Assembly (NCBI RefSeq): GCF_018398335.1
Contig: NZ_JAHBRX010000002.1
Coordinates: 744,001-808,000, forward strand
DNA length: 64,000 nucleotides
Direction of reading: 5' to 3'
From: Chelatococcus sp. HY11
Lineage (GTDB): Bacteria; Pseudomonadota; Alphaproteobacteria; Rhizobiales; Beijerinckiaceae
The notes under the pieces are model-generated. The model was not told the origin of the DNA, searched no databases, and worked only from the letters and a program-made list of their open reading frames with translations. Each line of letters begins with the position of its first letter. Position 1 is the stretch's first letter. Positions 8,561-52,397 of this stretch are shown in pieces. The position numbers and the translations under genes are program-made.

Positions 8561-8562
8561 CC

Positions 8563-21055: not shown

Positions 21056-22348
21056 TCAAGCGCCTGCTGGAAACAGGTTTTCCTTGAGCGTCGCCCCCGC
21101 GTAGTCGCGGCGCGAGATACCTTTGTCCTGCATGATGGGGATCAGGCGTGTCGCCACCTCGGTCAGGTAATCATAGTCCTGCAGCATGCCGCGAAAATGG
21201 AAGCCATCCGCGCCAGTCTCGTCGGCTATTTCATCGATCGTATCGGCGACCTGTTCATAGCTTCCGCAGATCTCATGGGTCTCCTGCAGGGCTTCATGCA
21301 AAGCGAACTGACGCAAGGTCACCGCCTCCCCCATACCCTGCATCTGCTGGAGCTTGCCGATGATGGCCTGCACCGGCAGGTCGGGCGGGATGGGTTTGTC
21401 GAGATCGAAATGTGACATGTCGTGGCCAAGCGTCAGCGACACATAGGCGAGGCCTCGCTCCAGGTTGGCGCGTTCGTGGTGCAGGCGCCGCTTCTCGCGT
21501 GCGATGCCTTCCGTCTCGCCAATGATCGGCTTGATGGCAAAGAAGATCTTCATGGACTTCGGGTCACGGCCCGCCGCAACGAGCTGTTCGCGAATCCGCA
21601 CGACATACTTGCGCATGTCCGCCACGTTGTTCTTGTGCGCGATGACCACATCGCCCTGTTCAATAGCAAAACGTTGCCCACGCGGTGATGTGCCCGCGAC
21701 GATCACCAAGGGTTCTTTTTGCGGTGACGAGGTTACGTTCAACGGGCCCCGGCACTTGTAGAACGCGCCGGCATGGTCGACCGGGCGCACCTTGGCGGGA
21801 TCGGCGAAGATGCCCTCCCTGCGGTTCTCGACGATCGCGTCGGGTTGCCAGCTGTTCCAAAGCTTTCGCACGAGATCCATGTATTCGTCCGCCATGTCGT
21901 AGCGGCGATCATGTTCGATCAGCTGGTCCTCTCCGAAATTGCGGGCTGCGTCGTCACTGGCGCCGGTCACGACATTCCAGCCAATGCGTCCGCCGCTCAG
22001 GTGATCGAGGGTTCCCAACAGACGCGCGAGAAGATAGGGCGGATAGAAGGTCGTCGACAAGGTCGCCGCCAGGCCGATCCTTGATGTCACCGCTGCCATC
22101 ATCGCCATGGTCGGCACAGGGTCGTGGCTGATCATGAAGCCGTTCTTGACGTACCAATCGGTGCTGTCGCCATAGGTCGTCGGCACCGCGACTGAATCGG
22201 CAAAGAGAATCATGTCGAACTTGGCGCGTTCGCACATCCGCGCCACATCGAGATAGAGATCCGGCTTGCGCCAGTCATAGATCGCACCCGAGGGCCTGTT
22301 CCAGTTGTTCGGGCTGTTGGGGCCAAACCAGGCAAGATGGATCTTCAT
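21056..22348 (-). CDS. FMN-dependent monooxygenase, NtaA/SnaA/DszA family
   Basis: Luciferase-like flavin monooxygenase, 430 residues, normal for the NtaA/DszA group. N-terminus KIHLAWFGPNSPNNWNRP; family segments FDMILFADS, TLDHLSGGRIGWNVVTGASDDAARNFG and PLVIVAGTSPRGQRFA. Known members use reduced FMN from a separate reductase to oxidise C-N or C-S bonds (nitrilotriacetate, EDTA, dibenzothiophene sulfone, pristinamycin). No flavin reductase gene is adjacent. Last gene of the 11-gene operon, 12 bases after the M20 peptidase. It may N-dealkylate or oxidise the compound or product handled by the other enzymes; this is inference. Confidence 0.92.
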   Translation of the reverse strand: MKIHLAWFGPNSPNNWNRPSGAIYDWRKPDLYLDVARMCERAKFDMILFADSVAVPTTYGDSTDWYVKNGFMISHDPVPTMAMMAAVTSRIGLAATLSTTFYPPYLLARLLGTLDHLSGGRIGWNVVTGASDDAARNFGEDQLIEHDRRYDMADEYMDLVRKLWNSWQPDAIVENRREGIFADPAKVRPVDHAGAFYKCRGPLNVTSSPQKEPLVIVAGTSPRGQRFAIEQGDVVIAHKNNVADMRKYVVRIREQLVAAGRDPKSMKIFFAIKPIIGETEGIAREKRRLHHERANLERGLAYVSLTLGHDMSHFDLDKPIPPDLPVQAIIGKLQQMQGMGEAVTLRQFALHEALQETHEICGSYEQVADTIDEIADETGADGFHFRGMLQDYDYLTEVATRLIPIMQDKGISRRDYAGATLKENLFPAGA

Positions 22349-22360
22349 GGCGCTGATCCT

Positions 22361-23518
22361 TCATTCGAGCGATTGGAGAACGCGCAGGAGCAGGTTGCCG
22401 CGCGGGCGAATGCTATCCAGCTCGATGTATTCGTTATGGGTATGCAGGCCAGCCCCACAGGGACCGAGGCCGTCGAGAACTGGGACGTAGGCGACACAGA
22501 ACTGCCCGTCCGAACCACCCGATCCCTCGCCGTCCGGCAGATCCTCAAGCGTGAAGCCGAGGTCAGCCGCGAGACGGGCTGCCTTGTCGAACAGCACGCT
22601 GATGTCCTGACGATCCGTCTTGCGGTAGGGCGCTCGGTTAAGGCCGCCGGTCACCCGCACCGTGGTATCGGGGAATTGCGGCTTGAGGGAAAGGATGCGC
22701 TCCGTCATTTCGCGGGCGGTGTCGTCGCTCGGAACGCGCAGGTCGATTGAGGCGCTGGCGAATTCCGGCACGACGTTTCCAGCGGTTCCGCCTTCGATCT
22801 GCCCGACATTGACGGTGATGCCGCGCGTGTAATCCGTCATCGCCTCCAGGGCCAGCACCTGCGCCGCGAGTTCCCGGATGGCGCTGCGGCCGTTGGCATG
22901 GGCGTTGCCGGAGTGCGAGGGGCGACCTTGCACTTCGATGCGAAAACGACCGACACCCTTGCGGGCGGTGACGATCTTTCCGCCGTCACGCGCCGGCTCC
23001 AGAACCAGCGCGTAGCGGGATTGCCGCGCCAGATCTTCGATCAAGGCCCGCGATGTCTCGCTGCCGACCTCCTCATCGGACACATAGATGATCGCGATCG
23101 GAAGAGGCGTCCTGCGTTCGGCCTCGATCAGCCGGCGCAGCGCCATGAGCGCCATGTAGCCGCCGGATTTCATGTCCTGGATGCCGGGGCCATAGGCACG
23201 CCCCTCGACCTCGCGGATCGGATTGAGAGCGAGACTGCCGATCGGGTGGACCGTATCGAGGTGGCAGACGAGGAGAATGCCGGGGCTGTCCGGATCGCCC
23301 CAGGGCGCGCGAGCCAAGAGGTGGTCGCCACGACCGCCCGTCCCCGGATAGCGGATTGTCGGCACACCGATGGCCGTGAAATCGGCTGCGGCCTTGTCGA
23401 CCATGCGATTGACCGCTTCCGCGCTCGACGTGGGGCTGTCGATGGCGACCCAAGCGTTGAGGCCTGCCATGAAATCTTCCACCGGGCCGAAATCCACGAA
23501 GGGATATGCGACATCCAT
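22361..23518 (-). CDS. M20 family metallopeptidase/amidohydrolase
   Basis: Zinc hydrolase of the carboxypeptidase G2/ArgE/DapE family, 385 residues, no signal peptide, so cytosolic. Metal ligands visible: His86 in VCHLDTVH (with Asp88), Asp115 in DMKSGG, and the Glu149-Glu150 pair in VSDEEVGSE; the dimerisation insert follows (GRPSHSGNAHANGRSAIREL). The family removes an amino acid or acyl group from N-acyl or peptide substrates; glutamate carboxypeptidase-type is the nearest guess. ATG 23518 lies 17 bases after the ABC ATPase stop. Likely cleaves an amide exposed after ring opening. Confidence 0.9.
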   Translation of the reverse strand: MDVAYPFVDFGPVEDFMAGLNAWVAIDSPTSSAEAVNRMVDKAAADFTAIGVPTIRYPGTGGRGDHLLARAPWGDPDSPGILLVCHLDTVHPIGSLALNPIREVEGRAYGPGIQDMKSGGYMALMALRRLIEAERRTPLPIAIIYVSDEEVGSETSRALIEDLARQSRYALVLEPARDGGKIVTARKGVGRFRIEVQGRPSHSGNAHANGRSAIRELAAQVLALEAMTDYTRGITVNVGQIEGGTAGNVVPEFASASIDLRVPSDDTAREMTERILSLKPQFPDTTVRVTGGLNRAPYRKTDRQDISVLFDKAARLAADLGFTLEDLPDGEGSGGSDGQFCVAYVPVLDGLGPCGAGLHTHNEYIELDSIRPRGNLLLRVLQSLE

Positions 23519-23535
23519 TGCCTCTTCCTTGCTTT

Positions 23536-24564
23536 TCAGGCCGTTGTTACGAGCGACGTCAGGCCGCGCTCGACGACATCGGCGGCAAAATGGCACGCGG
23601 CCTTATGGTTCGCCGCAAGCTTCACCATCGGCGGCGGCGTCGTCCGGCAGAGATCTCGCGCCATCGGACAGCGCGTATGAAAACGGCAGCCCGTGGGGGC
23701 TTTGTCCGCGGTCAGCGCATCGCCTTTGAGAGCGATACGCTTGCGCTGTTGGCCGCCGTGGTGCTCCGGCACCGCCGCGATCAGGAGCCGCGTATAGGGA
23801 TGACCGGCGGCCTGCACCAGCGCCTCCGTGGGACCCTCCTCGACAAGGGCCCCGAGATACATGACGGCGATCCTGTCGGACATGTAGCGTGCAACGGCCA
23901 GATCGTGCGTGATGTAGAGATAGGACACCTTGAGCCGCTGCTGCAGCGCCAGCATGAGGTTCATGACCCCGGAGCGCACGGATACATCGAGCATGCTCAC
24001 CGGCTCGTCCGCAACCACGATGCGGGGTTCCAGGATAAGCGCCCGGGCGATGGCGACGCGCTGGAGCTGCCCGCCCGACAGATCGGCCGGATAGCGATCG
24101 GCAAAGGCCTCGGCAGGCCGCAGTTCCACGGCGGACAGCATCTCCAGGACACGGGCCTGACGCACACGCGCCGGAAGATGGTTGTGCAGGTCGAGAGGTT
24201 CTCTCAGCGACTGCCCGATCGTGAAGCGGGGATCGAGCGCCTCATAGGGGTTCTGGAAGATCATCTGGACATCGCGACGGTAGCGTTTCAGCGCGGGCCC
24301 CGCGATGTCAGTCACGTCTTTGCCATCGTAAACGACGGCGCCGTGCGTCGGCCGCTCCTGCAAGGTCACGATCCGTCCCGTCGTGGTCTTGCCGGAACCG
24401 CTTTCGCCGACCACGGCGATGGTTTCGCCCTCGCCAAGCCGGAGGCTGACATGATCGACGGCAACCACACGCTCGGTCTGCCGGCCGGTGAGGAGCGACA
24501 TCAGCCCCGCGTTGCCGTCGTAGATCATCTGCAGATCGACGAGTTCCAGCAGAGGCGATGTCAT
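23536..24564 (-). CDS. Peptide-type ABC transporter ATPase (OppF/DppF)
   Basis: Cytosolic ATPase of an oligopeptide-family importer, 342 residues. Walker A GESGSGKTT, Q-loop MIFQNPYEALDPR, signature LSGGQLQRVAIARAL, Walker B VVADEPVSMLD, H-loop THD, and the C-terminal oligo_HPY segment with GCRFHTRCPMARDLC. The ATG at 24564 overlaps the upstream fusion gene by 4 bases. It pairs with the ATPase half of that fusion. Confidence 0.93.
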   Translation of the reverse strand: MTSPLLELVDLQMIYDGNAGLMSLLTGRQTERVVAVDHVSLRLGEGETIAVVGESGSGKTTTGRIVTLQERPTHGAVVYDGKDVTDIAGPALKRYRRDVQMIFQNPYEALDPRFTIGQSLREPLDLHNHLPARVRQARVLEMLSAVELRPAEAFADRYPADLSGGQLQRVAIARALILEPRIVVADEPVSMLDVSVRSGVMNLMLALQQRLKVSYLYITHDLAVARYMSDRIAVMYLGALVEEGPTEALVQAAGHPYTRLLIAAVPEHHGGQQRKRIALKGDALTADKAPTGCRFHTRCPMARDLCRTTPPPMVKLAANHKAACHFAADVVERGLTSLVTTA

Positions 24565-26471
24565 CGCACAGACTCCCTGCGTGGTTCATGCGCGAACTGG
24601 CCGGCGTAATGGCATTCGGCGCGGTGCTTCGCGTCCAGACGGATATCGGGCGGCATCTCGGTCCGGCAGATTTCGCCAGCGTGGATGCATCGTGGTGCGA
24701 AACGGCAGCCCTTGCCGTTTGCGGGGCGCTGCGATCCATCGCCGGGCAGGCTCGTCAACGGGCGCTTGGGGCCGGCGAGACTGGGCAGGGATTCGATCAG
24801 CGCGCGGGTGTAGGGATGCGCCGGGTTCTGGAAGATGACCTCTGTCGGCGCCAGCTCGACGATCCGGCCCGCATACATGACCGCGACCGTGTCGCATGTC
24901 TCGGCAACGGCGCCCATGTCGTGCGAGACGAGGATGAGCGACAGATTCATGCGCCGGCGCAGACGGTCGATCTCGGCGAGGATCTGGTCTTGAATGATCA
25001 TGTCGAGCGCGGTGGTCGGCTCGTCGGCGATCACCAGATCCGGCTCGTGGATCAGGCTGAGCGCGATCATGGCGCGCTGGCGCATCCCGCCCGACAGCTC
25101 ATGGGGATAGGCATCCATGCGCTTGCGAGGGATGCCGATCAGGTCGAAGACCTCGGCAATGCGCCGGTCGGCGTCCGCCCGGGTCGCGCCGGGTCGATGC
25201 AGCAGGAATGCGTCGCGCATCTGCTTGCGGACCGTCGTGACCGGATTGAGCGCGTTCATCGCGCTCTGGAAGATGGTAGCAAGGCGCACCCAGCGCAGCG
25301 CCTGGATGCGCGCGCGGCCGCGTTCGCCGACCGGATGCCCCTGGGCCAGGATGGCGCGCCCATCGAAGCGCACCGTTCCATCAATGATCTGGGCGTTGTT
25401 CGGGAGGGTCTGCAGCAATGCACTGCCGAGGCTGCTCTTGCCACAGCCGCTCTCCCCGACGATGCCGAGGCTGCCGCCACGTGGCAGATCGAAGGATACG
25501 CCATCGACGGCGACCGTCTGCCCGCCGTTCGCGTGATAAGCCATGCGCAGATCCCGCACGGTGAGGATGACCGGGCCGCCGGGGGCTTCGTCATCCGCAG
25601 GCGGTGCGGCGAGCCGCCGTTTCGCCGGCGCGCCGCCGCGCGAGCGCAATTGCGGATTCATCGCGTAGTTGAGGCCGTCGCCCAAGAGGTTGAGGCTCGC
25701 GACCAGGATCAGCATGGCCGCGCCCGGCGCGATCGACATCCAGGGCGCGAGCCGCAACTGGCGCTGTCCCTCGAAGATCATGCGCCCCCAACTGACGGTA
25801 TTCTGATCGCCGAGGCCAAGGAAGCTCAATCCCGCTTCGGTGAGAATGGCGAGACCCATGAGGAGGGTCGCGTCGGTCACCAGGGGTGCAAGTCCGTTTG
25901 GAATGACATGGCGGAACAGCACCTGCATGTTGGAAGCGCCCGCCGCCAGCGCGGCTTGCACATAGACCCGGGATTTTATGGAGAGCACCTGCGACCGGAT
26001 GATGCGCGCCGATCGAGGCCATGTGGTGAGCGCGATCGCGACCATCGTCAGGACAAGGTTGGACCCGAACAGGGCAACGATCAGCAGGATCAGGAAGAAC
26101 GTCGGTATCAGCAGGAAGACGTCGAAGACGCGGCTGAGGAGCGCATCGACCCAGCCGCCGTAGTAGCCGGCGAGCGAGCCCACGATGATGCCGAGCAATA
26201 CGGACAGGGCCGCCGACCCGATGGCCACCACCAGGGCGACCCGCGTTCCCCAAATGACGCGGGAGAATAGATCGCGGCCATAATTGTCGGTTCCGAACCA
26301 GTGCTCGGCACTTGGCGGGAGATAGGGCTTGCCGCCCATCGCGTTCGGGTCGGGCAAACCGAGGAACGGTGTCACCAGCGCGAGCCCGACCGCCGCGACG
26401 ACGATGCTCAGGCTGATCGCACTCGCCGGGCTCGACATCAGGTTGCGAAGGAAGCGAAGGGACTGAGCCAT
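24561..26471 (-). CDS. Fused ABC permease-ATPase (DppC-DppD type)
   Basis: 636 residues: an OppC/DppC-type permease (about 1-280, with [18 protein letters not shown] and the EAA-loop [21 protein letters not shown]), a linker of about 25 residues ([15 protein letters not shown]), then an OppD/DppD ATPase (about 300-636: Walker [10 protein letters not shown], signature [16 protein letters not shown] region, Walker [13 protein letters not shown]-loop VSHD, Cys-rich tail [14 protein letters not shown]). This fusion is known in peptide/nickel-type importers. With the separate OppB and OppF it gives two permease and two ATPase domains, a complete importer. Start ATG 26471, one base after the upstream stop. 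Confidence 0.93.
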
Positions 26472-26472
26472 G

Positions 26473-27438
26473 CTACAGCTTCACCCGCGGGTCGAGCGCC
26501 GCATACAGAACGTCCGTCACAAGCGATGCGATCATCACCGTGAAGGACATGATGATGAAGGCTCCCATGATGATGGGCGTGTCCCGGGCAAGGATCGCCT
26601 CGTAGATCAGGCGCCCGAGCCCGGGCCAGGAGAAGACGGTCTCCGTCAGCACGGCGCCGGTGAGCAGCACACCGATCTCCAGGCCCAGCACCGTGATGAT
26701 CGGCAGCAGGGCGTTGCGCAGGCCGAATTTCATCAGGATCTGGGGCTCGCTGAAGCCGATTGCGCGCCCGGTCGTCACATAGCTCTCGGCGAGCACGTCC
26801 GCGACAGACGCGCGCGCGAGGCGCACGTATTGCCCGAGCCAGACCGTGGCAAGCGCCAGCACCGGCAGCACCATATGCCAGACGATGTCCATGACCCGGC
26901 CGATGCCCTCGCGTGGCCCGCCCACGGTGACCATTCCCGTCGAGGGAAACCAGCGCAGCTTCACCGCGAACAGCAGGATCAGCATAAGGCCCAGCCAGAA
27001 AACCGGGATGCTGAAGAGGGAGATGGAGAGGCTCGTGACGCTGGTGTCGAGGGCCGATCCCGGGCGTCGCGCGACAAAGGCGCCGATTGCCGTGCCGAGG
27101 ATGGCGGCAAGCACGAGGCTCGTCCCCGCGAGCAGAAGGGTCGCGGGAACCCGCTCCAGGATGACATCGAGAACGGGCTCGCGCGTGCGATAGGACAGGC
27201 CGAGGTCACCGGAGGCAATCTGCATCAGATAATTCAGCAGTTGCTGAGGCAGCGGCAGGTCGAGGCCATAACGCTCGCGCACCGCCGCCATATATTCCGG
27301 GTTTGCATCTTCGCCCGCGAGGATGATCGAGACGTCGCCGGGAGCGAGATGGATCAGCGCAAAGTTGATAATGATGATGACGAAAGCGACAGGCAACACC
27401 TGCGCCAGACGAAATAGAATATATCGTTGCAGCCGCAT
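26473..27438 (-). CDS. Peptide-type ABC transporter permease (DppB)
   Basis: Inner-membrane permease of the OppB/DppB family, 321 residues, about six helices. N-terminus RYILFRLAQVLPVAFVIIIINFALIHLAPGD is typical, as are YGLDLPLPQQLLNYL and the EAA loop ESYVTTGRAIGFSEPQILMKFGLRNALLPI. Ends VLYAALDPRVKL. Partner of the downstream permease-ATPase fusion. Confidence 0.94.
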   Translation of the reverse strand: MRLQRYILFRLAQVLPVAFVIIIINFALIHLAPGDVSIILAGEDANPEYMAAVRERYGLDLPLPQQLLNYLMQIASGDLGLSYRTREPVLDVILERVPATLLLAGTSLVLAAILGTAIGAFVARRPGSALDTSVTSLSISLFSIPVFWLGLMLILLFAVKLRWFPSTGMVTVGGPREGIGRVMDIVWHMVLPVLALATVWLGQYVRLARASVADVLAESYVTTGRAIGFSEPQILMKFGLRNALLPIITVLGLEIGVLLTGAVLTETVFSWPGLGRLIYEAILARDTPIIMGAFIIMSFTVMIASLVTDVLYAALDPRVKL

Positions 27439-27452
27439 TCGTCACCCCTCGT

Positions 27453-29018
27453 TTACTTGACCGGAGGCGTAACGCCATAATATCCGAACCAGGTTACAGA
27501 CTTGTCGTAGCCTGACTCCTGGAGCGGGAAACCAGACCAGCCCTTGCGCACGAGGCTCGTCTTCTGCTCATTGAAGAGGTTGATGTAAGGCACGTCCCGC
27601 ACGAGCATGGCCTGCATCTGCGCATAATATGGCTTACGCTCAGCCTTGTCGGAGATCGCGGCCGCCTTGGCGCCGAGCGCGTCGAGCTCCGGATTGCTAT
27701 AGCCCATGAAATTGCGGGGGCCACCCGTGCCGAAATGCTCGCGGTAGGCATCCGGGTCCGGTCCATAGCGGGTGAAATAGCAGCTAATGTCGAAGTTCTT
27801 TTCCTGCATGCGCCGGAACCAGGTTGCCTGATCGAAGGCCTCGAGCTTGGCGTCTATGCCGACCTCCCGCAATTGTTGAACAAGCACCTCATTGATCGCG
27901 CGGCAATCGGAATAGGACGGCCCGGTCACAGAGACGGAAAACCGCCATTTGCCGTCTTTGCGCGGCAAGCCCGCCTCGTCGAGCAGAGCCTCCGCCTTGG
28001 CCTTGTCGAAAGCGGGAAAACTGACGTCCGTGTTGATCCAATCCACCTGTGTGTCGACATTGGCGTGAAAGGCCGGCTTCCAGAAGCCGTTGAACCCTAG
28101 CCGGCTGATCGCGTCCCGATCGATGGCATAGGAAATCGCCTGACGGACCTTGAGATCCGACAAGGGAGCCCGCGCCAGGTTGAGCTGGATATCGCGGCTG
28201 TAGTGGGATGGCGTGAAGACCACCTCGAGGCTCGGGTCGGCCTGCAAGGCCGGAACCTCGGCAAGAGGTGGCGCATAGTCATAAGGCAGATGCGGGAACT
28301 GCTCCGCGTCGAATTCCGCGCGGGCCACATTCGCATCGGCGATAGGCCTGAAGATGAGACGATCGATCTTCGGCTTGCCACGGAAATAATCGGGATTGGC
28401 CACGAGCTCTACGGCACTTCCCTTGTCCCAGCGCGAAAACTTGAAGGGGCCGCTGCCAACGGGCTTGTTGACATAGGGGCCCGTATCGAAACCTTCTTCC
28501 TTCTCCCAGAGATGCTTGGGATAGATCTTGCCCGTCCAGCCCGCCGCCTGCGCCATCATCGGCACGAAGGCCGCGTTCGGGGCCTTCAGCTTGATGACGA
28601 CCGTATTCGCATCCGGCGTTTCGATGGCCTCGACGTCCCTCAGAAAGGCCGCATAGGGATATTTCTTCGCAATCATGCGGTCGTAAGTGAACTTGACGTC
28701 TTCCGATGTCAGCGGCTTGCCATCATGCCATTTGATGTTCGGATGAAGCTTGAAGGTGTAGACCTTGCCGTCAGGGCTGATCTGCCAGCTGTCGGCGAGA
28801 TCGCCATAGGCCGGCGTGCCGGCGACCACCCCCCAGTCCATCACCACGAGGTGGCTATAGATGCTGCTCCCGGGCCCATAGGCGCCGGTATCGGCAGCCG
28901 GGTTCGGGCTCAGCGTTCGCGGGTCGTCGAGTTGAGGCACGACGAGAGTGGTCTCGGCATAGGCGCCGACCGGCCATGCGGCTATCATGGCCGAAATAAG
29001 CAACTCCCTTATTCTCAT
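27453..29018 (-). CDS. Peptide-type ABC solute-binding protein (DppA/OppA family)
   Basis: Periplasmic binding protein (SBP_bac_5), 521 residues. Signal peptide about 1-21 ending AYA, mature ETTLVVPQLDDPRTLSPNPA. Family motifs: LADSWQISPDGKVYTFKLHPNIKWHDGKPLTSEDVKFTYDR and VRQAISYAIDRDAI. It delivers the substrate to the DppB/DppC-D/DppF importer. Ligands of this family include peptides, nickel, opines and glycans; context favours an N-acyl or cyclic dipeptide-like compound. 36 bases separate it from the upstream zinc hydrolase stop. Confidence 0.93.
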   Translation of the reverse strand: MRIRELLISAMIAAWPVGAYAETTLVVPQLDDPRTLSPNPAADTGAYGPGSSIYSHLVVMDWGVVAGTPAYGDLADSWQISPDGKVYTFKLHPNIKWHDGKPLTSEDVKFTYDRMIAKKYPYAAFLRDVEAIETPDANTVVIKLKAPNAAFVPMMAQAAGWTGKIYPKHLWEKEEGFDTGPYVNKPVGSGPFKFSRWDKGSAVELVANPDYFRGKPKIDRLIFRPIADANVARAEFDAEQFPHLPYDYAPPLAEVPALQADPSLEVVFTPSHYSRDIQLNLARAPLSDLKVRQAISYAIDRDAISRLGFNGFWKPAFHANVDTQVDWINTDVSFPAFDKAKAEALLDEAGLPRKDGKWRFSVSVTGPSYSDCRAINEVLVQQLREVGIDAKLEAFDQATWFRRMQEKNFDISCYFTRYGPDPDAYREHFGTGGPRNFMGYSNPELDALGAKAAAISDKAERKPYYAQMQAMLVRDVPYINLFNEQKTSLVRKGWSGFPLQESGYDKSVTWFGYYGVTPPVK

Positions 29019-29053
29019 TGTGATCCCCTCGATTGCTCTGGATTATTCTTAAG

Positions 29054-30064
29054 TCAGGCGCGCGGATCGTAGCCGCTGTCACCATCTCCTATAATATAGG
29101 CATATTCCCCTGGATGTACCTTCGATATCCTATTTCTTATCATCATGATTTCAGTCTTGTCGAACGGAGCCTTGATTTCATCAAGAATCTCGAATGTATA
29201 GGGTGAGACGACGCGGCCGAGGACAGTGCCCTTGGCCAGGCTCTTGCCCATGATGTCCAGGCCGCAGACCGGCACGAACGTGCCGCCATGGGAGGGACGC
29301 AACGACGTGCCCTTGCGGACCACAATGCGCGCGGCCGAGAGATCGGGTTCACCCTCGACAACTTCGATCACCTTGAGCATGTTGAGAAAATCGCTGTAGG
29401 CCTTCTCGAAATAGCCTTGGTCGAGAATGAGCCCACCGCCACCCGTCTCCACCACGAAACAGGTTTTCCCGAGCTGGTCTCCACAGTTGGAGAGTGTGCC
29501 ACGCTGCTCGTTGTGCTCCCAGAGGACTTCCGCGCCGCTTGCGCGCGCGACGGCATGGATCACTGCGTTGCGTGCCGAAGCGGCGGGATCCACGGTATAA
29601 TGGTAGTGAATGACAGTGTCAGACCCACCGCCGTGATAATCGAAGATGAAATCGGCCCTCGGCAGTATCTTTTCCGCGATGACCCCGGCAAGGACATCGG
29701 TGAACCAGTTCTTGCCGAGCGCTGACCCGGGAAATACGCGGTTGAGATTGTGAAAGTCGATCGGCGTGTTGCGGGTGCCGCTCTCGAAGGAGTGCGGGTT
29801 GAGCACGGGCGCGAGCAGGATCGTGCCGGAGAAATCATAACCGTCCCGTATCAGCCGGCTCTTGAGCAGTCGGCAGAACTCCGAGCTCCACAATTCCTCT
29901 CCATGCGATCCACAGGCGACCAGCGTCACCGGTCCGCTGCGTTTGCCGGCGACCGCGTGGACGGCAAGGGTCAACTGAAAGCCGCTGGCCATGGTACAGA
30001 CCGGGATCTCGAACATCGCGGCGGAGCTTGCCGGCACCTCAGTCCCATCCCATTCAAAACTCAT
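29054..30064 (-). CDS. Succinylglutamate desuccinylase/aspartoacylase family zinc hydrolase
   Basis: M14-like zinc carboxypeptidase fold, 336 residues, no signal peptide. Zinc-site candidates are His54 and Glu57 in GSHGEE and His144 in FDYHGGG; FHNLNRVFPG holds the Asn-Arg substrate-binding pair usual in the family. Known members remove acyl groups from N-acyl amino acids (N-acetylaspartate, N-succinylglutamate) or act on ectoine derivatives. The C-terminal third (from about 240: GTSLRPSHGGTFVPV) is the lipoyl-like beta domain common in this group. Lies between hyuB and the binding-protein gene in the 11-gene operon. Confidence 0.9.
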   Translation of the reverse strand: MSFEWDGTEVPASSAAMFEIPVCTMASGFQLTLAVHAVAGKRSGPVTLVACGSHGEELWSSEFCRLLKSRLIRDGYDFSGTILLAPVLNPHSFESGTRNTPIDFHNLNRVFPGSALGKNWFTDVLAGVIAEKILPRADFIFDYHGGGSDTVIHYHYTVDPAASARNAVIHAVARASGAEVLWEHNEQRGTLSNCGDQLGKTCFVVETGGGGLILDQGYFEKAYSDFLNMLKVIEVVEGEPDLSAARIVVRKGTSLRPSHGGTFVPVCGLDIMGKSLAKGTVLGRVVSPYTFEILDEIKAPFDKTEIMMIRNRISKVHPGEYAYIIGDGDSGYDPRA

Positions 30065-30093
30065 GTCAATCCCTCATCCTGTTTGGCGCGACC

Positions 30094-31734
30094 TCAGTCC
30101 GCGCGTCCGTAATCGCGCGCGGCTCGCTCTGGCGTCACATAGCCCGCCTCGATGTCCTCCAGGAGCTTGGCGGGATCTCGCGTCCGGGGATCGCCGTATC
30201 CCCCACCGCCCGGAAGACTGATGACGTAGACATCGCCGGGACCGAGTTGCAGCGGCTCGATCGGCACGGCATGACCGTTAACCGAGAAGGTGCCGGCAGC
30301 GCCTGGATAACCACCGAGAACACCCGGTGGTGGAAAGCGGACCTTGTCGGGACGCAGCGAGGCGACGATCGGCCTGTCGCCAACGACGCGCATGGCGATC
30401 TCCTGGCCGAGCCCGCCGCGTTGGCGGCCGGCTCCGCCGCTGTCGGCGACAAGCTGCTTGCGCTCAATCAGGATAGGCGCCTGATTTTCAGTGATCTCGA
30501 CCGGCGTGACCGTCCCGTTATAGGGGAAGGCAACCGTCGGCAGCCCGTCAGTGGTCGCGGTCGCGCCCTTGCCGCCATTGGGCAGGATGTGGACGTTGAA
30601 GGTCGATCCGTCTTCCGGACTGGTCCCATGCAGGGTCATGGCCCAGAACGAGCCGCTTCCGGCCTGGATGCGATCGCCTATGGCTGAAGACAGGGCGCCA
30701 TAGATCGCGACATGAATATGAAAGCTGGATTTGGAGCGCGACTTCACCGCCGCTGGAATCCGTGTGTTGAAGGCGGATCCCTCCGGCGCCGACATGGTGA
30801 TCGGGCGGAATAGTCCCTCATTGTTCGGCAGATCAGGCGTCAGTGAACATTTGATGGGGTAATAGGTATCGGCGAAGGTAATATTGGTTACGCAATTGAT
30901 TGATGCGTCACTGAATTGCGGCGACGAACCGGTATAATCGACGTGGATGGCATCGCCGCTCTTCTCGACTGTTACTTCTATATGCAACGGCGATCGGTAG
31001 CCGTCCGCCTCCAGACCGTAGGCCCAGGTGCCGTCCGGAAGGGCGCTGATGGCGCGGCGCATCGCCTGCTCGGAGCGGTCGAGAATTTCGTCGGCGAGGC
31101 GCTGAAAGCCCGCGCCACCGCCATAATCCTGCATGAACTCCGCCAGACGCTCGGCGCCAAGCTTTTCCGCGCCCACCATTGCCTTGATGTCGCCGATGAC
31201 GAGGTCGGGGACGCGCACATTCGCGGCGATGAGGCGGAAGAGCTGCTTGTTCTCCTCGCCAGCCTCGTAGAGCTTGCTCGGCGGGATGCGCAACCCCTCT
31301 TCATAGAGGTCGCGTGCGTCGAAGAAGTCGAGCCGGCCGCCGATATCCGCCACATGGGCCACCGCGCCGACGATCGCGACCATCTCACCCTGCGCGAAAA
31401 CCGGCATGACCACACAGACATCCGGCAGGTGACCGGCCCCGAGCCAGGGGTCGTTGGTGACGAGCACGTCGCCCGGCACCAGCGTCTCGGCGGGGAAGGC
31501 TGCAAGCAGGTGCTTCGTCGTCGCCGGTAGCGTGACGGTAAAGGCCGGGGAACTCAGCTGCGACTGGGCAATGCTGCGCCCATATTTGTCGAGCATGATC
31601 ACCGCGAAGTCGCGGCTTTCACCCACGATCGTCGAGAACGAGGTACGGACGAGATTGATGTCGACCTCGTCCATGATAGAGATCAGCCGGTTCCACTGAA
31701 TTTCAAGCGAGATCCCGTCAAGTCCGTTGGACAT
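30094..31734 (-). CDS. hyuB: Hydantoinase B/oxoprolinase family protein (copy 1, nearest hyuA)
   Basis: HyuB-family subunit, 546 residues. Family motifs: VRTSFSTIVGESRDFAVIMLD, PGDVLVTNDPWLGAGHLPD, VAHVADIGG, SGGAGRQRGGLGQ and LPGGGGYGDPRTRDP. The ATG at 31734 lies inside the end of hyuA (17-base overlap), so the two are translationally coupled and are the most likely native pair. It closely resembles the two HyuB genes upstream, indicating a family expansion inside one operon. Confidence 0.92.
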   Translation of the reverse strand: MSNGLDGISLEIQWNRLISIMDEVDINLVRTSFSTIVGESRDFAVIMLDKYGRSIAQSQLSSPAFTVTLPATTKHLLAAFPAETLVPGDVLVTNDPWLGAGHLPDVCVVMPVFAQGEMVAIVGAVAHVADIGGRLDFFDARDLYEEGLRIPPSKLYEAGEENKQLFRLIAANVRVPDLVIGDIKAMVGAEKLGAERLAEFMQDYGGGAGFQRLADEILDRSEQAMRRAISALPDGTWAYGLEADGYRSPLHIEVTVEKSGDAIHVDYTGSSPQFSDASINCVTNITFADTYYPIKCSLTPDLPNNEGLFRPITMSAPEGSAFNTRIPAAVKSRSKSSFHIHVAIYGALSSAIGDRIQAGSGSFWAMTLHGTSPEDGSTFNVHILPNGGKGATATTDGLPTVAFPYNGTVTPVEITENQAPILIERKQLVADSGGAGRQRGGLGQEIAMRVVGDRPIVASLRPDKVRFPPPGVLGGYPGAAGTFSVNGHAVPIEPLQLGPGDVYVISLPGGGGYGDPRTRDPAKLLEDIEAGYVTPERAARDYGRAD

Positions 31735-33865
31735 CGACCAACTCCCTTTCACGCGCGGCTTCGGAATTGGCGAGATCCAGGAAGACACTGCCGAAGGGAT
31801 CGATGCGGACGGTCGCGGACGGTCCGGCGACGACGGTGCACTCCCGCTCCTCGATAATGGCCGGGCCTTGAATTTCCATGCCGCTCCTCAGGCGGTAGCG
31901 ATCATAGACCGGTGTTTCGACGAAGGCGCCGAGCTCCGGAAAATAGGCGCGGCGGTGCCCCTTCAACGCTGTCCCGGCCTCTGTTCCCGCTGTCTCGCCA
32001 GCGCTCGGCAGGGGCACGGCGGGCGGCGGCGCACCGACCATGGTCCGGCAGGTAATCAATTCAACGGGCAGGTTGAAATGGGCGTGCCCATATTTCTCCT
32101 GATGCGCGGCGTAGAAGAGCTGCGCGATCTCATCAACCGATCCGCGCTCATAGACGGCGCGCGGCAGGGTTACGGTGACCTCATGGCCCTGCCCCTTGTG
32201 GCGTAGATCCATGCGATGTGTCACTTCGACACCGGGTGAGTTGGGAGCAACGCCGGCCTCCGCGAGGACCGCCAGCCCCTCTGCCGCCATCCCCTCGAAG
32301 ATCGCCCTCAGGTCCTCCCAAGCCACCTTGTCGAGCCGGGCGACGTAAGAGCGCGCGTAATCAAAGGAAATGGCCGCCGTGACGAGACCCATCGCCGATG
32401 TGGCACCAGCCCCGGACGGTATGATGACACCGCGCATCTGGAGCGCTCGCGCCAATTCATAGGCATGAGCCGGGCCCGCGCCGCCAAAGGCGAAGAGATA
32501 GAACTTACGCGGGTCCTCGCCGCGTTCGGCGATATGCACCTTCATGGCCGCGAGCATGTTCTGATTGACGACCTCGAACAGACCGGAGGCTGCCGCCTCA
32601 GCCGCAAGGCCGAGCGGCGCACCGATATGCTCGGCCAAGGCCGATTGGGCGGCCCCCAGGTCAAGTTTCATAGCCCCGCCGAGGAAGTAGTTCGCGTCGA
32701 GATAGCCAAGCGCGAGATTGGCATCTGTCACGGTGGGCTTGGTGCCCCCGCGCCCATAGCTCGCGGGCCCCGGCATGGCTCCGGAGCTGTGGGGCCCAAC
32801 CTTGAGCAGGCCGAGTTGATCGATATGCGCGATACTGCCGCCGCCCGCGCCGATTTCGATCAGCTCCACCATAGGGATCTTGACCGGTAGGCCGCTGCCC
32901 TTCTTGAAACGCGCTACGCGTCCGACCTCGAACAGGTTCGACTTCGCGGCCTCATAGTTCTTGACGACGGCGATCTTCGCGGTCGTCCCCCCCATGTCGA
33001 AGGTCACCATGCTGTCGATGCCCATCTGACGTCCGTAGTAAATGGCCGCCAGCACGCCGGCGGTCGGGCCCGACTCGAGCATGCGGATGGGGAAATCCTT
33101 GGCGGTCTGCGCCCCGGCGATGCCGCCGGAGGAGATCATCAGATAGAGGCGCCGGCGATAATCCATCGTGGCGAGGCGCCCCTCGATCTTGTCGAGATAG
33201 GCGCGGGTGATCGGTTGCACGTAAGCATTCGCCGCCGTCGTGCTCATGCGTTCATATTCGCGGATCTCCGGCGCGACCGCGCTTGACAGGCAGATGCTGA
33301 TGCCAGGCAGTTCCTCCCTCAGGATGGCTGCCGCACGCTGCTCATGAACCGGATTGCGGAAGGAATGCAGGAAGGCGATCGCCAGCGCCTCCACCTTTTC
33401 CGCCCTGAGCGTCTGCGCGACGGTGCGCAGCGCATCCTCGTCGAGAGGGGTGAGGACCGTGCCATTCTTGTCGAGACGTTCCGTCACCTCAAGGCGAAGC
33501 GCGCGTGGCACCAACAGCGTGGGCTTTTCCAGGAAGAGATCGTAGATGTCATAGCGAACTTCAGTGCCCATCTCCAGCACGTCGCGGAAGCCTCGGGTGG
33601 TCAACAATGCGGTGCGGGCGCCCTTGCGCTCGATCAAGGCATTGGTGATCAGCGTCGTCGCATGGATGGCGATTTCGATATCGGGACCCGCGACGCCCGC
33701 GGCCTCGAACAAGGGGGTGAGGCCATCCATGACGCCGCGCGATGGATCATCCGGCGTTGTCAGGCATTTGTTCAAATGCGTGGTGCCGGATTGTCTGTCC
33801 AAAAGGACGAAATCGGTGAATGTCCCACCGATATCGAAACCGAGGCGAAAACGCGGTTCGCTCAC
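31718..33865 (-). CDS. hyuA: Hydantoinase A/oxoprolinase family protein, 16-kb operon
   Basis: HyuA-family subunit, 715 residues. N-terminal FRLGFDIGGTFTDFVLL, core VTFDMGGTTAKIAVV, IGAGGGSIA and FGGAGPAHA. Only hyuA gene in an operon with three hyuB genes, so it either partners all three or two of the HyuB proteins work otherwise. Starts at GTG 33865 in a GTGA overlap with hyuB copy 2. Expected to bind ATP and, with HyuB, open a cyclic amide. Confidence 0.93.
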   Translation of the reverse strand: MSEPRFRLGFDIGGTFTDFVLLDRQSGTTHLNKCLTTPDDPSRGVMDGLTPLFEAAGVAGPDIEIAIHATTLITNALIERKGARTALLTTRGFRDVLEMGTEVRYDIYDLFLEKPTLLVPRALRLEVTERLDKNGTVLTPLDEDALRTVAQTLRAEKVEALAIAFLHSFRNPVHEQRAAAILREELPGISICLSSAVAPEIREYERMSTTAANAYVQPITRAYLDKIEGRLATMDYRRRLYLMISSGGIAGAQTAKDFPIRMLESGPTAGVLAAIYYGRQMGIDSMVTFDMGGTTAKIAVVKNYEAAKSNLFEVGRVARFKKGSGLPVKIPMVELIEIGAGGGSIAHIDQLGLLKVGPHSSGAMPGPASYGRGGTKPTVTDANLALGYLDANYFLGGAMKLDLGAAQSALAEHIGAPLGLAAEAAASGLFEVVNQNMLAAMKVHIAERGEDPRKFYLFAFGGAGPAHAYELARALQMRGVIIPSGAGATSAMGLVTAAISFDYARSYVARLDKVAWEDLRAIFEGMAAEGLAVLAEAGVAPNSPGVEVTHRMDLRHKGQGHEVTVTLPRAVYERGSVDEIAQLFYAAHQEKYGHAHFNLPVELITCRTMVGAPPPAVPLPSAGETAGTEAGTALKGHRRAYFPELGAFVETPVYDRYRLRSGMEIQGPAIIEERECTVVAGPSATVRIDPFGSVFLDLANSEAARERELVDVQRT

Positions 33866-35526
33866 GTCTGGTCCTCCGAGAGATGAAATTTGTAGAGTGT
33901 GGCAGCGGCGTCGGGGCTCACGTAGCCCGCCGCAAGATCGTCGATGATTGCCGGCCGGGGACGCTCGCCAGCCGGGCCGTATCCTCCCCCACCGGGAAGC
34001 CTGAGCTCCACGATATCGCCCTTGGCCAGCGTCATCGGCGCGTTTGGCGCCGTGTTGCCATTGAGAAGAAGGGCCCCGAGCGCGCCCGGTTCGCCACCGG
34101 CCAATCCCTGCGGAGGGAAACGCAACTTGTCGGCCCTTACAAATATCTGCAGGGCACGGTCATCAAGTGGCGAGAAGGTGAGGCGCTGCCCCAGGCCACC
34201 GCGATACCGGCCGGGGCCGCCGCTATCCGTCAGAAGCTCGCGGCAGCCCACGATGACGGGCGCATTGTTTTCCATGATTTCAACGGGCGTGATCGTGCCG
34301 TTATAGGGAAAAGCGATGGTAGGCAGGCCATCCCGTGCCGCCACCGCGCCCTTTCCGCCGTTCGGCAACATATGCGCGCGAAAGCTCTCCCCGTCGGGGT
34401 GTTCACCGCTGATCACCAGCGTCCAGAACGAGCCGCTCGCTGCCTGCGCCTGCTCGCCCAGAATAGGCGCCAGCGCGGCATAGAGGAGCGCGGAAATGTG
34501 AAAGCTGGTCTTCGAGCGAGCCCGCACGGCGCGCGGAAAACGCGCGTTGAGAACGGAGCCCAGCGGCGCGCGCACCGTCAGAAATTCGGTCAGCCCTTCG
34601 TTATTGGGCACATCCGGCAGAAGACTGCATTTGAACGGATAATAAGTATCGGCAAAGGTGACGTTAGCCGAGGCATTGATCGAACAATCGAGCTGTTCCG
34701 GCGAACTTCCCGCGAAGTCCACATCCACCTTGCCGCCGGCGATCGTCACCGTCGCGGCGATGGTGATCGGGTTTACATGCCCGTCCGCCTGCAGGCTTGC
34801 CGTATAGACGCCTTCCGGCAGGCGTTCCACGGCGCGTGACATCGCGGCGCGCGAACGCGAGAGGATCTCGCTGCCCAGACCCTCGAGATCACGAAGGCCA
34901 TAGTCGTCAAGAAATTCGGTGAGACGCTTGGCGCCGAGCGCCAGTGCTCCGCACAGCGCGCTCAGATCGCCGATCATCAGGCGGGGCGCGCGGGAATTCG
35001 CGGCGATAATGTCCATCAGCAACTGGACGGGCTCGCCCTCCCGCATGAGGAACGTGGGCGGAATTCGCAGCCCCTCCTCGAACAGATCCTTGTCGTCCAG
35101 GTAGTCGCTGCGGCCGCCGACGTCCGAGAGATGGGCGACACAACCAACGATCGCCGCGATCGTTCCGTCATGGAAAACCGGCATGCAGACCGTGAAATCC
35201 GGCAAATGCCCGGAGCCAAGCCATGGGTCATTCGTGACGAGAACGTCGCCCGGCTTCAGCGTCCCCGGTGGATGGGCCTGCAACAGATGCTTGGCTGTGA
35301 TCGGCAGCGTGATCGTGAAGGCCGGCGTCGACAGCTGCGATTGAGCCAGCGAACGGCCTTGCCCGTCCATCATCACAACCCCGAAGTCGCGGCTCTCGCC
35401 GACGATCGTCGAGAAAGACGTGCGGGCGACGGCTGCATCCACCTCATCCATGATGGTAACGAGCCGGGCCCAGCGGATTTCCAGATCAACGGAATGGATA
35501 AGTGGCGGGCTATTGCCTGTCATCAT
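33862..35526 (-). CDS. hyuB: Hydantoinase B/oxoprolinase family protein (copy 2, middle)
   Basis: HyuB-family protein, 554 residues, intact. Motifs ARTSFSTIVGESRDFGVVMMD, PGDVLVTNDPWLGSGHLPD, DVPNNEGL and SGGPGRYRGGLGQ. Joined to the genes on both sides by 4-base overlaps (ATGA with copy 3, GTGA with hyuA). All usual blocks are kept, so it does not look like a decaying duplicate. Confidence 0.92.
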   Translation of the reverse strand: MMTGNSPPLIHSVDLEIRWARLVTIMDEVDAAVARTSFSTIVGESRDFGVVMMDGQGRSLAQSQLSTPAFTITLPITAKHLLQAHPPGTLKPGDVLVTNDPWLGSGHLPDFTVCMPVFHDGTIAAIVGCVAHLSDVGGRSDYLDDKDLFEEGLRIPPTFLMREGEPVQLLMDIIAANSRAPRLMIGDLSALCGALALGAKRLTEFLDDYGLRDLEGLGSEILSRSRAAMSRAVERLPEGVYTASLQADGHVNPITIAATVTIAGGKVDVDFAGSSPEQLDCSINASANVTFADTYYPFKCSLLPDVPNNEGLTEFLTVRAPLGSVLNARFPRAVRARSKTSFHISALLYAALAPILGEQAQAASGSFWTLVISGEHPDGESFRAHMLPNGGKGAVAARDGLPTIAFPYNGTITPVEIMENNAPVIVGCRELLTDSGGPGRYRGGLGQRLTFSPLDDRALQIFVRADKLRFPPQGLAGGEPGALGALLLNGNTAPNAPMTLAKGDIVELRLPGGGGYGPAGERPRPAIIDDLAAGYVSPDAAATLYKFHLSEDQT

Positions 35527-37190
35527 TCTGCCGCCGCGGACATGGGAGGTTGTGGGCTGTGGCCATAGACGTTGGTGGCCGCATCGAGGCTTATCTTACC
35601 CTCTGCCAAATCCCCCTGGACGGCGGCGCTGGCGCGCTGGCGCGGGTCGCCAAATCCGCCGCCGCCCGGCAGGTCGAGTGTCACGACCTGCGTCGGCTGC
35701 AACTCGAAGGGTTCGAGCGGCATCACCTCGCCGTCGCGCGTCAGGGCACCTGCTGCCCCGGGATGCCCGCCGGAGAGCCCCGGCGCGGGAAAGCGGATCT
35801 TGTCCGGACGGATCGTCATCCGCACGGAGCGGCCGAGCGTGGTAAGTCGGATGGTCTGCCCGAGCCCACCGCGAAATTCCCCCGGTCCTCCGGAATCGGT
35901 TCGCAGTGATCGCTCGAGCACGACGATAGGCGCGATGTTTTCGATGATCTCCGCCGGCGTGATGGTCCCATTTCCAGGAAAAGCGATGGTTGGCTGCCCA
36001 TCTGCGCCATTGACGGCTCCACGGCCGCCGTTCGGCAGGACATGCATCGCGAAATTGGAACCATCATCGTTGGACCCGAAGCATTTGACGGACCAGAACG
36101 AGCCACTGCCCGCCTGCACCCCATGGGGCAGAGCCTCCGCCAGCGCGCCATAAATCGCGTTGTGAATGTGATAGCTCGTCTTCGAACGGGCCTTCACCGG
36201 CGCCGGAAAGCTCGCATTGAGGATGGAACCGGCTTCCGCGCGGGTCGCGATGGGCCGGAACAAGCCCTCGTTATTCGGAATATCCGGCAGAAGCGCGCAT
36301 TTGAAAGCATACAGAGAATGCGCATGAGTGACATTCATCACGCTGTTGATCGATGCGTCGTGACGCTGGAGGCTCGAGCCGGCAAAATCGCAGACCACCG
36401 TGTCACCCGAGACTTCGATGCTGACCGCGATATGTGTCGGGATCTTGTAGCCATCGCAGTCGGTCGCTCCTTTATAGGTGCCGTCCGGTATGGCGCGGAT
36501 CGCGCTCCGCATGGCAGCTTCAGAACGCTTCAGGATCTCCTCGGCCGCAGCGTCGAGGCCCGCCTCACCATAGTCCTGCATAAACTCAGTGAGCCGCGCG
36601 CCACCGAGGTGAGCTGCTCCGACTATGGCATCGACATCCCCCAGGACCTGCGTCGGATAGCGAATATTGGCTCTGAGAATGTCGAACAGCTGCCGATTGG
36701 GCTTGCCCTCGACGTAAAGCTTGCTCGGCGGGATGCGAAGCCCCTCTTCAAAGACGTCTCGGGCGTCGAATTCATCGAGGCGTCCGCCGATGTCCGAGAT
36801 ATGCGCTGCAGTCGCGATATAACCGACGATTTCATCATCCCCGAACAGCGGGACGATGATATAGAAATCAGGAAGATGCCCGTGGCATATCCACGGATCA
36901 TTTGTAATCAGAACATCGCCGCGTCGCAGTGTTTCGGGCGGAAAATCCTGGAGCAACCGACGTGTCGCGCTGGGTAGCGAACATGTAAATGCGGGCGACG
37001 ACAATTGCGACTGGGCAATGGATCGCGCATGCTTGTCCAGAAGAATAACCGCAAAATCGCGTGTTTCACCAACAATCGTGGAAAAGGATGTTCGCACCAG
37101 CGCGATATCGACCTCATCCATGATGGATATCAATCGACTCCACTGAATCCACAACGTTACGCCATCTGGAATTGATTTTGATTGTTTCAT
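35523..37190 (-). CDS. hyuB: Hydantoinase B/oxoprolinase family protein (copy 3, first in operon)
   Basis: HyuB-family protein, 555 residues, first gene of the 11-gene operon. Motifs VRTSFSTIVGETRDFAVILLD, RGDVLITNDPWICHGHLPD and SGGPGEFRGGLGQ. ATG 37190 has GGGGCAAC just upstream; a start farther upstream at 37253 lacks a site. The C-terminal glycine-rich segment LPGGGGFGDPRQRAS is intact. Divergent from the IclR regulator. Confidence 0.92.
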   Translation of the reverse strand: MKQSKSIPDGVTLWIQWSRLISIMDEVDIALVRTSFSTIVGETRDFAVILLDKHARSIAQSQLSSPAFTCSLPSATRRLLQDFPPETLRRGDVLITNDPWICHGHLPDFYIIVPLFGDDEIVGYIATAAHISDIGGRLDEFDARDVFEEGLRIPPSKLYVEGKPNRQLFDILRANIRYPTQVLGDVDAIVGAAHLGGARLTEFMQDYGEAGLDAAAEEILKRSEAAMRSAIRAIPDGTYKGATDCDGYKIPTHIAVSIEVSGDTVVCDFAGSSLQRHDASINSVMNVTHAHSLYAFKCALLPDIPNNEGLFRPIATRAEAGSILNASFPAPVKARSKTSYHIHNAIYGALAEALPHGVQAGSGSFWSVKCFGSNDDGSNFAMHVLPNGGRGAVNGADGQPTIAFPGNGTITPAEIIENIAPIVVLERSLRTDSGGPGEFRGGLGQTIRLTTLGRSVRMTIRPDKIRFPAPGLSGGHPGAAGALTRDGEVMPLEPFELQPTQVVTLDLPGGGGFGDPRQRASAAVQGDLAEGKISLDAATNVYGHSPQPPMSAAAE

Positions 37191-50632: not shown

Positions 50633-50651
50633 GGTCGCGGGCCCCCATCGA

Positions 50652-52270: not shown

Positions 52271-52324
52271 TGCGGATCCTCGTCTGTTCCCGGAAGTTGG
52301 CGCGGCTTGCAGCCGTCTGGCATA

Positions 52325-52340: not shown

Positions 52341-52397
52341 CGGAAGACCGGCAAGAAAAATTCGTCGTCGAGAACCCCAATGCCTGCCGAATTTGCA

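Follow-up and report, generated by a model that had tools for sequence, protein, structure and literature searches.

To our knowledge, few HyuA/HyuB genes have known substrates. A described member of the family is the caprolactamase CapAB, whose published account, in the part used here, gives DxGGTxTD, DxGGT and GxxPGP as the ATP motifs of HyuA-type proteins and Asp41, His99, Asp102 and His124 as the metal ligands of CapB, mutants in this site being inactive (PMC8453981). For diketopiperazines, a 2013 study of their microbial degradation calls the enzymes unknown, and ATP is absent from its main text (PMC3852281). Here we analysed a run of genes in a 64,000-nucleotide stretch of Chelatococcus sp. 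HY11 (NZ_JAHBRX010000002.1, positions 744,001 to 808,000; hereafter the window), which sits in a 1.92 Mb contig (C2) of a 6.95 Mb genome. The run joins a single HyuA to three HyuB, a zinc hydrolase and a peptide-type importer, and we found that this combination recurs, with its divergent IclR regulator, in several alphaproteobacterial lineages.

A conserved block with a nine-gene core

A first-pass annotation of the window had described eleven minus-strand genes with overlaps or gaps of under 40 bases, divergent from an IclR gene, and both the open reading frames (ORFs) and their Pfam domains bear this out. Eleven ORFs with named domains occupy positions 21056-37190, separated by overlaps of 4-17 bases or gaps of 1-35 bases when the M20 and HyuB3 genes are taken to start at the ATG codons at 23518 and 31734, respectively (the longest ORF of HyuB3, starting at 31788, gives a 71-base overlap with HyuA). 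The domains likewise agree with the gene content proposed there, namely one HyuA with three HyuB, a zinc hydrolase, a peptide importer, an M20 peptidase and a flavin monooxygenase, to which we add that OppC and OppD are fused into one permease-ATPase gene (Table 1).

Positions 21075-38183 align to a sister species of the genus (G015) as a single stretch of 17.1 kb with 97.0% identity, whose limits fall 19 bases short of the end of NtaA and 37 bases short of that of IclR. The flanks of the G015 block (8.8 kb and 9.0 kb compared) show no alignment to the flanks in the window, and the few short matches there are paralogous transporter and Hyu genes. Because the block is shared and its flanks are unalignable, the run is more than a chance co-location. 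Consensus scans for terminators and promoters also give no case for splitting it. Between 20700 and 38500 there are 8 terminator-like sites versus 12.5 in shuffled sequences; on the minus strand, the three inside the run (37105, 36002 and 34332) are 5-pair stems, weak and within coding sequence, and the best one (20949-20933) lies downstream of the last gene. Of the 3 promoter-like sites, where shuffled sequences give 4.9, two are on the minus strand at about 27.4-27.65 kb. The description of the run as a single unit is upheld on both counts.

The synonymous divergence (dS) between the window and G015 ranges from 0.061 to 0.170 for the twelve genes of the block and is 0.285 for rpoB, the one reference gene used (the rpoB row of another genome, G087, was left out as a wrong ORF at 45% identity). 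This lower dS suggests that the block moved after the two species separated, and the run is apparently a mobile, regulated catabolic cassette. A search for the empty site within the genus found both flanks on one contig of G055, about 117 kb apart, and hence no clean empty site.

The distribution of the block is sparse. AstE at 77% identity or more is present in 3 of 298 genomes of the family, the Chelatococcus genome included, and the same test places the block in two of the four genomes of the genus. HyuB2 above 70% identity was found in one of 397 genomes of the order besides its own, a metagenome-assembled genome (MAG) designated Co_bin.305 (G475), and among the matches listed for 385 genomes of the class none beyond its own exceeded 42%. 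Plasmid searches with AstE, HyuB2, HyuB3, HyuA, NtaA and M20 gave no match at 60% identity or more. When a collection of 84,980 species was scanned for exact matches to six AstE octapeptides, a scan that missed G015 and so can let carriers escape, three loci were returned: Microvirga antarctica (L029), a member of the same family (NCBI order Hyphomicrobiales), the Rhodospirillales MAG RE-15aug16-163 (L030), and again Co_bin.305 (L031).

Comparison of these loci defines a core made of the divergent IclR and nine genes in the order HyuB1-HyuB2-HyuA-HyuB3-AstE-SBP-OppB-OppCD-OppF (SBP, solute-binding protein), which recurs in M. antarctica, G475 and RE-15aug16-163. The last of these is readable from HyuA onwards only, owing to a contig end, and the G475 locus is split across two contigs and retains only the start of IclR at a contig end; the divergent IclR is also present in G015 and M. 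antarctica. The OppC-OppD fusion is one uninterrupted match in all five core loci. In Co_bin.305 (L031/L043), the open frame leading into the HyuB3 match has ~400 bases at its start that are unlike HyuB, which is probably an assembly join.

Among the loci read, only those of the window's genus have M20 and NtaA, placed after OppF; neither gene was found in 44 kb around the Microvirga operon or in the stretches read from the MAGs, and by this comparison of gene content they are lineage-specific additions outside the wider core. In M. antarctica, HyuB1 and HyuB2 are instead separated by an M19 dipeptidase and AstE is preceded by a D-aminoacylase relative, which RE-15aug16-163 has as well. Beyond the window, the eleven-gene order of the first description was found in a single species, which belongs to the same genus, and elsewhere it reduces to nine genes and IclR.

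One HyuA with three HyuB

The Chelatococcus genome encodes 22 HyuB and 20 HyuA (from 21 HyuA rows, two being parts of a single gene that is divided between the two ends of contig C2). When HyuA and HyuB were grouped by nearest-neighbour pairing, 19 of the 20 clusters had one A and one B, and the cluster of the operon alone had one A and three B. Most of these genes lie on contig C2, and their count is above that of the other 60 genomes sampled from the order (the next has 13, among the matches listed).

Inspection by eye of the matches listed for 61 genomes of the order (53 with a match) found HyuB genes side by side at three places. One of them, in G361 (L097, C1:268000-284000), is a true A-B-B arrangement beside Opp genes and a family-5 binding protein; its two HyuB are 67-68% identical to one HyuB of the Chelatococcus genome, and the cluster is an independent one. 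In G351 and G301, an A-B pair adjoins a B-A pair, and each genome has a short additional HyuB-like stretch (25-28% identity), located at ~13160-14176 of L096 (G351), within a 338 aa ORF, and at ~3802-4557 of L098 (G301). G346 has two separate A-B pairs. A second cluster with one A and three full-length B was not seen among the matches listed, which do not amount to a census.

A tree of 45 HyuB gives B1, B2 and B3 a clade each (bootstrap 100, SH-aLRT 99-100). It pairs B2 with B3 (96/92) and places B1 as the sister group of the HyuB from related systems that combine Hyu and Opp genes (100/100), which we call cousins. Together these 19 rows form one clade (100/100). The HyuA of core and cousins also form one clade (100/100), the core HyuA alone being supported at only 90/79; the duplicate contig L031 (represented by L043) and the fragment L045 were left out of the trees. 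Because B1, B2 and B3 each form clades that cross lineages, the B genes would have diverged before the carrier lineages did and have been kept together since. A second HyuB-HyuA pair of the window (6908-10974, HyuB at 6908-8560), beside a DctM-type transporter gene (5050-6567), falls outside the 19-row clade.

Catalytic features of HyuA and HyuB

HyuA contains the N-terminal, central and C-terminal Hydantoinase_A domains (PF05378, PF01968 and PF19278), all over cut-off, and its translation has intact phosphate/adenosine motifs DIGGTFTD, DMGGT and GAMPGP. The D-H-D-H metal ligands are present in HyuB1, HyuB2, HyuB3 and all complete orthologues; the HyuB3 of G475, truncated by a contig end, was left out of the ligand and diagnostic-column counts. 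Between the window and G015, dN/dS is 0.02 for HyuB1, 0.13 for HyuB2 and 0.03 for HyuB3, and by this measure all three are under purifying selection. Another HyuB of the same genome (L058, C2:1659000-1665500) reads D-H-H-H in the alignment, with His for Asp at the third metal ligand.

Next, we compared the columns aligned to the CapB pocket. B1, B2 and B3 have the letters S S F x L F x R in common, and with the cousins included the pattern is Ser, Ser, Phe, Leu, Phe or Tyr, Arg, which differs from that of CapB. Of the mappable columns, ten are invariant within every one of the three HyuB groups yet differ among all three (RE-15aug16-163 representing B3 in place of the cut G475 sequence). Eight of these ten diagnostic columns lie at most 5 residues from a CapB pocket residue (hypergeometric P 0.001; 0.007 and 0.005 with windows of 3 and 7 residues). 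Collectively, these patterns are suggestive of the same core ring chemistry in the three HyuB with different pocket surroundings.

Importer and amidase partners

The nearest NCBIfam model of the SBP is GsiB, at 176 bits against a cut-off of 594, and its nearest relatives in the PDB are Lmo0135, HbpA, DppA and YliB. Two DppA chains of the PDB differ, within the aligned part, at residues 383 and 436. We take Arg383 and Asp436 of DppA (precursor numbering) to be the anchors for the carboxylate and amine of the bound peptide. In all five core loci these columns hold Gly and Tyr, so that both DppA anchors are lost; the four cousin SBPs with letters at the two columns have Ser or Thr, and Pro, and the columns are uninformative for the Roseomonas and Ketogulonicigenium rows, gapped at both, and for G361 (a gap and Asn). 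With both charged anchors absent, a free zwitterionic dipeptide is an unlikely ligand, and a cyclic or end-blocked dipeptide would fit.

The AstE/AspA-type hydrolase scores 71.6 bits with the EutE/DoeB model, far below its cut-off of 402.7. Related one-A-one-B Hyu-Opp clusters come with amidases of their own: two more are present in the same genome, one with two AstE (C2:11-31 kb) and one with M19 (C1:4.338 Mb, L079), and others occur elsewhere, including clusters in G055 and G195 that again have two AstE. The Roseomonas plasmid clusters have M20 twice, M28 and an LLM monooxygenase beside Hyu-Opp, and the Ketogulonicigenium cluster has M20 twice and M28. The recurring theme appears to be peptide-type import, followed by ATP-driven ring opening and then an amidase or dipeptidase. 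As judged from gene content, such a theme fits cyclic dipeptides, which yield dipeptides when opened, more closely than it fits simple lactams.

The window holds a further run that is possibly another cyclic-amide or peptide operon (46155-53327), with a gene of the Asp/Glu/hydantoin-racemase family (46155-46826), an OppD-type ATPase (46823-47941), a family-5 binding protein (50652-52028) and an RpiR-type regulator (52482-53327).

IclR regulator and candidate operator

A related site, recognised by eye, is present in all four IclR-HyuB1 intergenic regions compared (window, G015, M. antarctica and G475). It is a perfect palindrome in G475 (TTCTCCCACATGGTGGGAGAA), near-perfect in M. antarctica, and imperfect in the window and G015. 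The derived pattern has one exact match in the whole genome, at the candidate operator of Table 1, with a chance expectation of 0.04 in the window. A copy with one mismatch lies at C2:1184193, ~4 kb from another HyuA/HyuB pair, and may be due to chance.

Table 1. Features of the locus, in window coordinates
Feature	Position	Strand	Evidence
IclR-family regulator, divergent, belongs to the conserved block	37399..38220	+	Pfam IclR_C, HTH_IclR
Operator candidate TTTTCCCACATCGTGGAA, imperfect palindrome, IclR-HyuB1 intergenic	37317..37334	+	Related site in 4/4 intergenic regions
HyuB1, Zn-lactamase-type beta subunit	35523..37190	-	Hydantoinase_B; D-H-D-H; own clade
HyuB2, second beta subunit	33862..35526	-	Hydantoinase_B; D-H-D-H; own clade; dN/dS 0.13
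HyuA, single ATPase (alpha) subunit	31718..33865	-	Three HyuA Pfam domains; ATP motifs
HyuB3, third beta subunit, likely ATG 31734	30094..31734	-	Hydantoinase_B; D-H-D-H; own clade
AstE/AspA-type zinc hydrolase, DoeB relative	29054..30064	-	AstE_AspA_cat; PDB relatives 3cdx, 2qj8
Family-5 SBP without the DppA Arg383/Asp436 anchors	27453..29018	-	SBP_bac_5
OppB/DppB-type permease	26473..27438	-	BPD_transp_1, BPD_transp_1_N
OppC-OppD fusion (permease and ATPase)	24561..26471	-	BPD_transp_1, ABC_tran and oligo_HPY in a single ORF
OppF-type ATPase	23536..24564	-	ABC_tran, oligo_HPY
M20 metallopeptidase, carboxypeptidase-G2-like, accessory to the core	22361..23518	-	Peptidase_M20, M20_dimer; PDB best 1cg2
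NtaA/DmoA-family FMN monooxygenase, accessory to the core	21056..22348	-	TIGR03860; PDB best DszA 5tlc

Discussion

The best overall explanation, which we consider probable without holding it firmly, is that the operon encodes one ATPase subunit, three Zn-dependent ring-opening subunits, a peptide-type importer and amidases that split the product. Under this explanation, the Opp/Dpp-type importer would bring in a small peptide-like amide, either blocked or cyclic, HyuA would activate the ring amide with ATP (and, by analogy to caprolactamase, perhaps bicarbonate) and the activated amide would be handed to HyuB1, HyuB2 or HyuB3. Because the three HyuB have a common core pocket and differ just around it, we propose that one ATPase serves three ring-opening specificities, for different ring substituents or stereoisomers. 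AstE, together with an M20, M19 or D-aminoacylase-type amidase depending on the lineage, would then cleave the linear product to amino acids, and in the window's genus the NtaA-type monooxygenase may contribute an oxidative step that cleaves C-N or C-S bonds in some of the substrates. The IclR regulator would control the operon from the intergenic site. Of the candidate substrate classes, cyclic dipeptides (diketopiperazines) or similar end-blocked peptides are the most likely on the sequence evidence. Import and stepwise breakdown, as the first-pass annotation suggested, remains the best reading of the genes, with a cyclic or blocked amide as the putative substrate.

Several observations weigh against this explanation or its parts. 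An additional HyuB is not unique to the operon, given the extra HyuB-like stretches in G351 and G301, and the three HyuB could belong to one mixed complex rather than be three alternative enzymes. The pocket positions derive from an alignment to CapB at 28-29% identity, 7 HyuB rows from outside the clade share the pocket Arg, and the diagnostic columns rest on about three independent lineages per group; a wider set of 50 differing columns shows no clear enrichment near the pocket (P 0.05, 0.49 and 0.19 with windows of 5, 3 and 7). Many family-5 SBPs for other ligands also lack the DppA anchors, so that their loss makes free dipeptides less likely without making cyclic ones more so. The operon contains no flavin reductase to partner NtaA. 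As for the operator, an inverted-repeat scan did not pick the candidate in the window or G015 and chose two other repeats, and with up to 2 mismatches the pattern has 5 matches, as many as the reversed-pattern control (5).

Among the alternatives, a hydantoin pathway of the Pseudomonas NS671 kind, in which HyuA/HyuB open 5-substituted hydantoins with ATP and M20 removes the carbamoyl group like HyuC, is improbable. HyuA/HyuB with an M20 hydrolase is indeed the NS671 gene set, and the hydantoin/Asp/Glu racemase-family gene at 46155-46826 of the window, with another beside the Roseomonas haemaphysalidis cluster, would suit it. The M20 enzyme is, however, nearest to carboxypeptidase G2 in the PDB (1cg2) and to NF005678 in NCBIfam, with no carbamoylase model among the matches listed (25 of 54 for NCBIfam), and it was not found in the Microvirga operon or the MAG stretches read. 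We know of no carbamoylase function for the AstE, M19 and D-aminoacylase partners.

We give no more credence to the breakdown of gamma-lactams from glutamyl peptides, such as 5-oxoproline and pyroglutamyl peptides, by which HyuAB would be a 5-oxoprolinase and the importer would bring in glutathione-like peptides. The SBP relatives listed above are consistent with this, the carboxypeptidase-G2-like M20 suggests a glutamate end, and HyuA is most like 6yra_A, deposited as a 5-oxoprolinase. The GsiB match nonetheless stays far below its cut-off, a single fixed substrate such as 5-oxoproline needs no three HyuB, and 6YRA is the structure of caprolactamase, according to the part of its report used here (PMC8453981).

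A salvage pathway for cysteine or peptide conjugates alkylated on S or N, along the lines of Bacillus CmoO/CmoJ, with M20 deacylating, the NtaA-type enzyme cleaving the C-S bond and HyuAB handling a cyclised conjugate, is doubtful to a greater degree. The Bacillus set for S-alkylcysteine salvage has an N-acetyltransferase and a second flavoenzyme beside the NtaA-type enzyme, neither of which is among the domains of the block. CmoO and CmoJ are described in the part of their report considered here (PMC10863075). Membership of NtaA in the NtaA/DmoA family is firm (TIGR03860, 420.9 bits against a cut-off of 279.7), its next PDB relatives after DszA are YtnJ and MoxC, and in Roseomonas the M20, LLM and Hyu genes occur alongside Opp, all of which would favour such salvage, but the lineage-restricted occurrence of NtaA and M20 means that they do not define the core.

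Just as hard to sustain is the view that HyuB2 and HyuB3 are redundant or decaying copies in an ordinary one-A-one-B lactamase. Gene duplication is common, and the A-B-B cluster of G361 and the short HyuB-like stretches beside the G351 and G301 clusters speak for this view; against it, orthologues of both B2 and B3 are found in G015, M. antarctica and G475, their metal ligands are all kept where the sequence is complete, and their dN/dS values are low. An ATP-dependent carboxylase related to acetone or acetophenone carboxylase is very improbable since, despite the homology of HyuA and HyuB to Acx and Apc subunits, HyuA reaches 326 bits with an ApcC model whose cut-off is 1500 and the run has amidases and a peptide importer instead of a third carboxylase-subunit domain.

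Returning to the preferred explanation of one ATPase with three ring-opening subunits, a broader form of it can be put forward tentatively, with more doubt than belief: a modular hydrolase in which HyuA is common to three separately evolved, dedicated Zn subunits and which opens a broad spectrum of diketopiperazines and other cyclic or end-blocked peptides. If true, this would be an energy-driven, broad-spectrum opening of cyclic and end-blocked peptides, enzymes for which are still largely unknown; and if the operon opens diketopiperazines, it would be one way in which bacteria degrade stable cyclic dipeptides. Given how abundant HyuA and HyuB are, the operon is a compact and testable case of how this superfamily diversifies, and it raises the question of whether an ATPase can be common to several catalytic subunits.

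Comparison with known systems

The pathway had been put forward as undescribed. Our literature searches found no operon of the same content and no substrate for such an operon, and to this extent the claim stands; it is tempered by the related Hyu-Opp clusters in the same genome and elsewhere. Enzymes of the ATP-dependent lactamase or hydantoinase kind open amides as heterotetramers with ATP and bicarbonate. The operon has the sequence features tested of this kind, namely the HyuA domains, the ATP motifs and the HyuB metal site, and departs from the usual, though not strictly defining, ratio of one HyuB per HyuA.

CapAB of Pseudomonas jessenii (PDB 6YRA) resembles the operon in its HyuA/HyuB family, its ATP motifs in A and its D-H-D-H in B, and differs in having one B per A where the operon has three and, as described in the part of the report used here, no importer or amidases as parts of the enzyme (PMC8453981). 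The low identity to CapB noted above is accompanied by gaps at both columns of its vicinal Cys410-Cys411 in the 17 HyuB rows listed. Assignment as a caprolactamase was rejected on the missing vicinal Cys and on scores with NF050156/NF050157 of 561.7 bits for HyuA and 186-217 for HyuB1-3, each against 1000. The acetophenone carboxylase core complex (PDB 5L9W) is alike in that unequal subunit sets are possible, two of its subunits matching HyuA and one HyuB, in the part of its report considered (PMC5214803). It multiplies A, whereas the operon multiplies B; with only one HyuA in the run and the low ApcC score, this assignment was rejected as well.

Closer in sequence are the Hyu-Opp cousins (two in the Chelatococcus genome, on C2 and C1, and those of G055, G195, G534 and G452), whose HyuA and HyuB are ~60-64% identical to HyuA and HyuB1 and which also have a family-5 SBP and Opp permeases, with an amidase partner in the Chelatococcus, G055 and G195 clusters. 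Unlike the operon, they have one HyuB of the clade per HyuA, no OppC-OppD fusion was seen in them, and their amidases and regulators are others. The plasmid clusters of Roseomonas marmotae and R. haemaphysalidis (NZ_CP061095.1 and NZ_CP061178.1), arranged SBP-Opp-IclR-M20-HyuB-HyuA-M20-LLM monooxygenase, contain the same functional set, the M20 directly before HyuB being 54% and the NtaA-like enzyme 32% identical to those of the window. They differ from the operon in having one HyuB, HyuA/HyuB identities of 29-39%, no AstE annotated or matched, and another gene order.

Taken together, these comparisons suggest that the system works like an ATP-dependent lactamase or hydantoinase, and that what is new is a conserved set of one A and three B tied to a dedicated importer, a regulator and exchangeable amidases.

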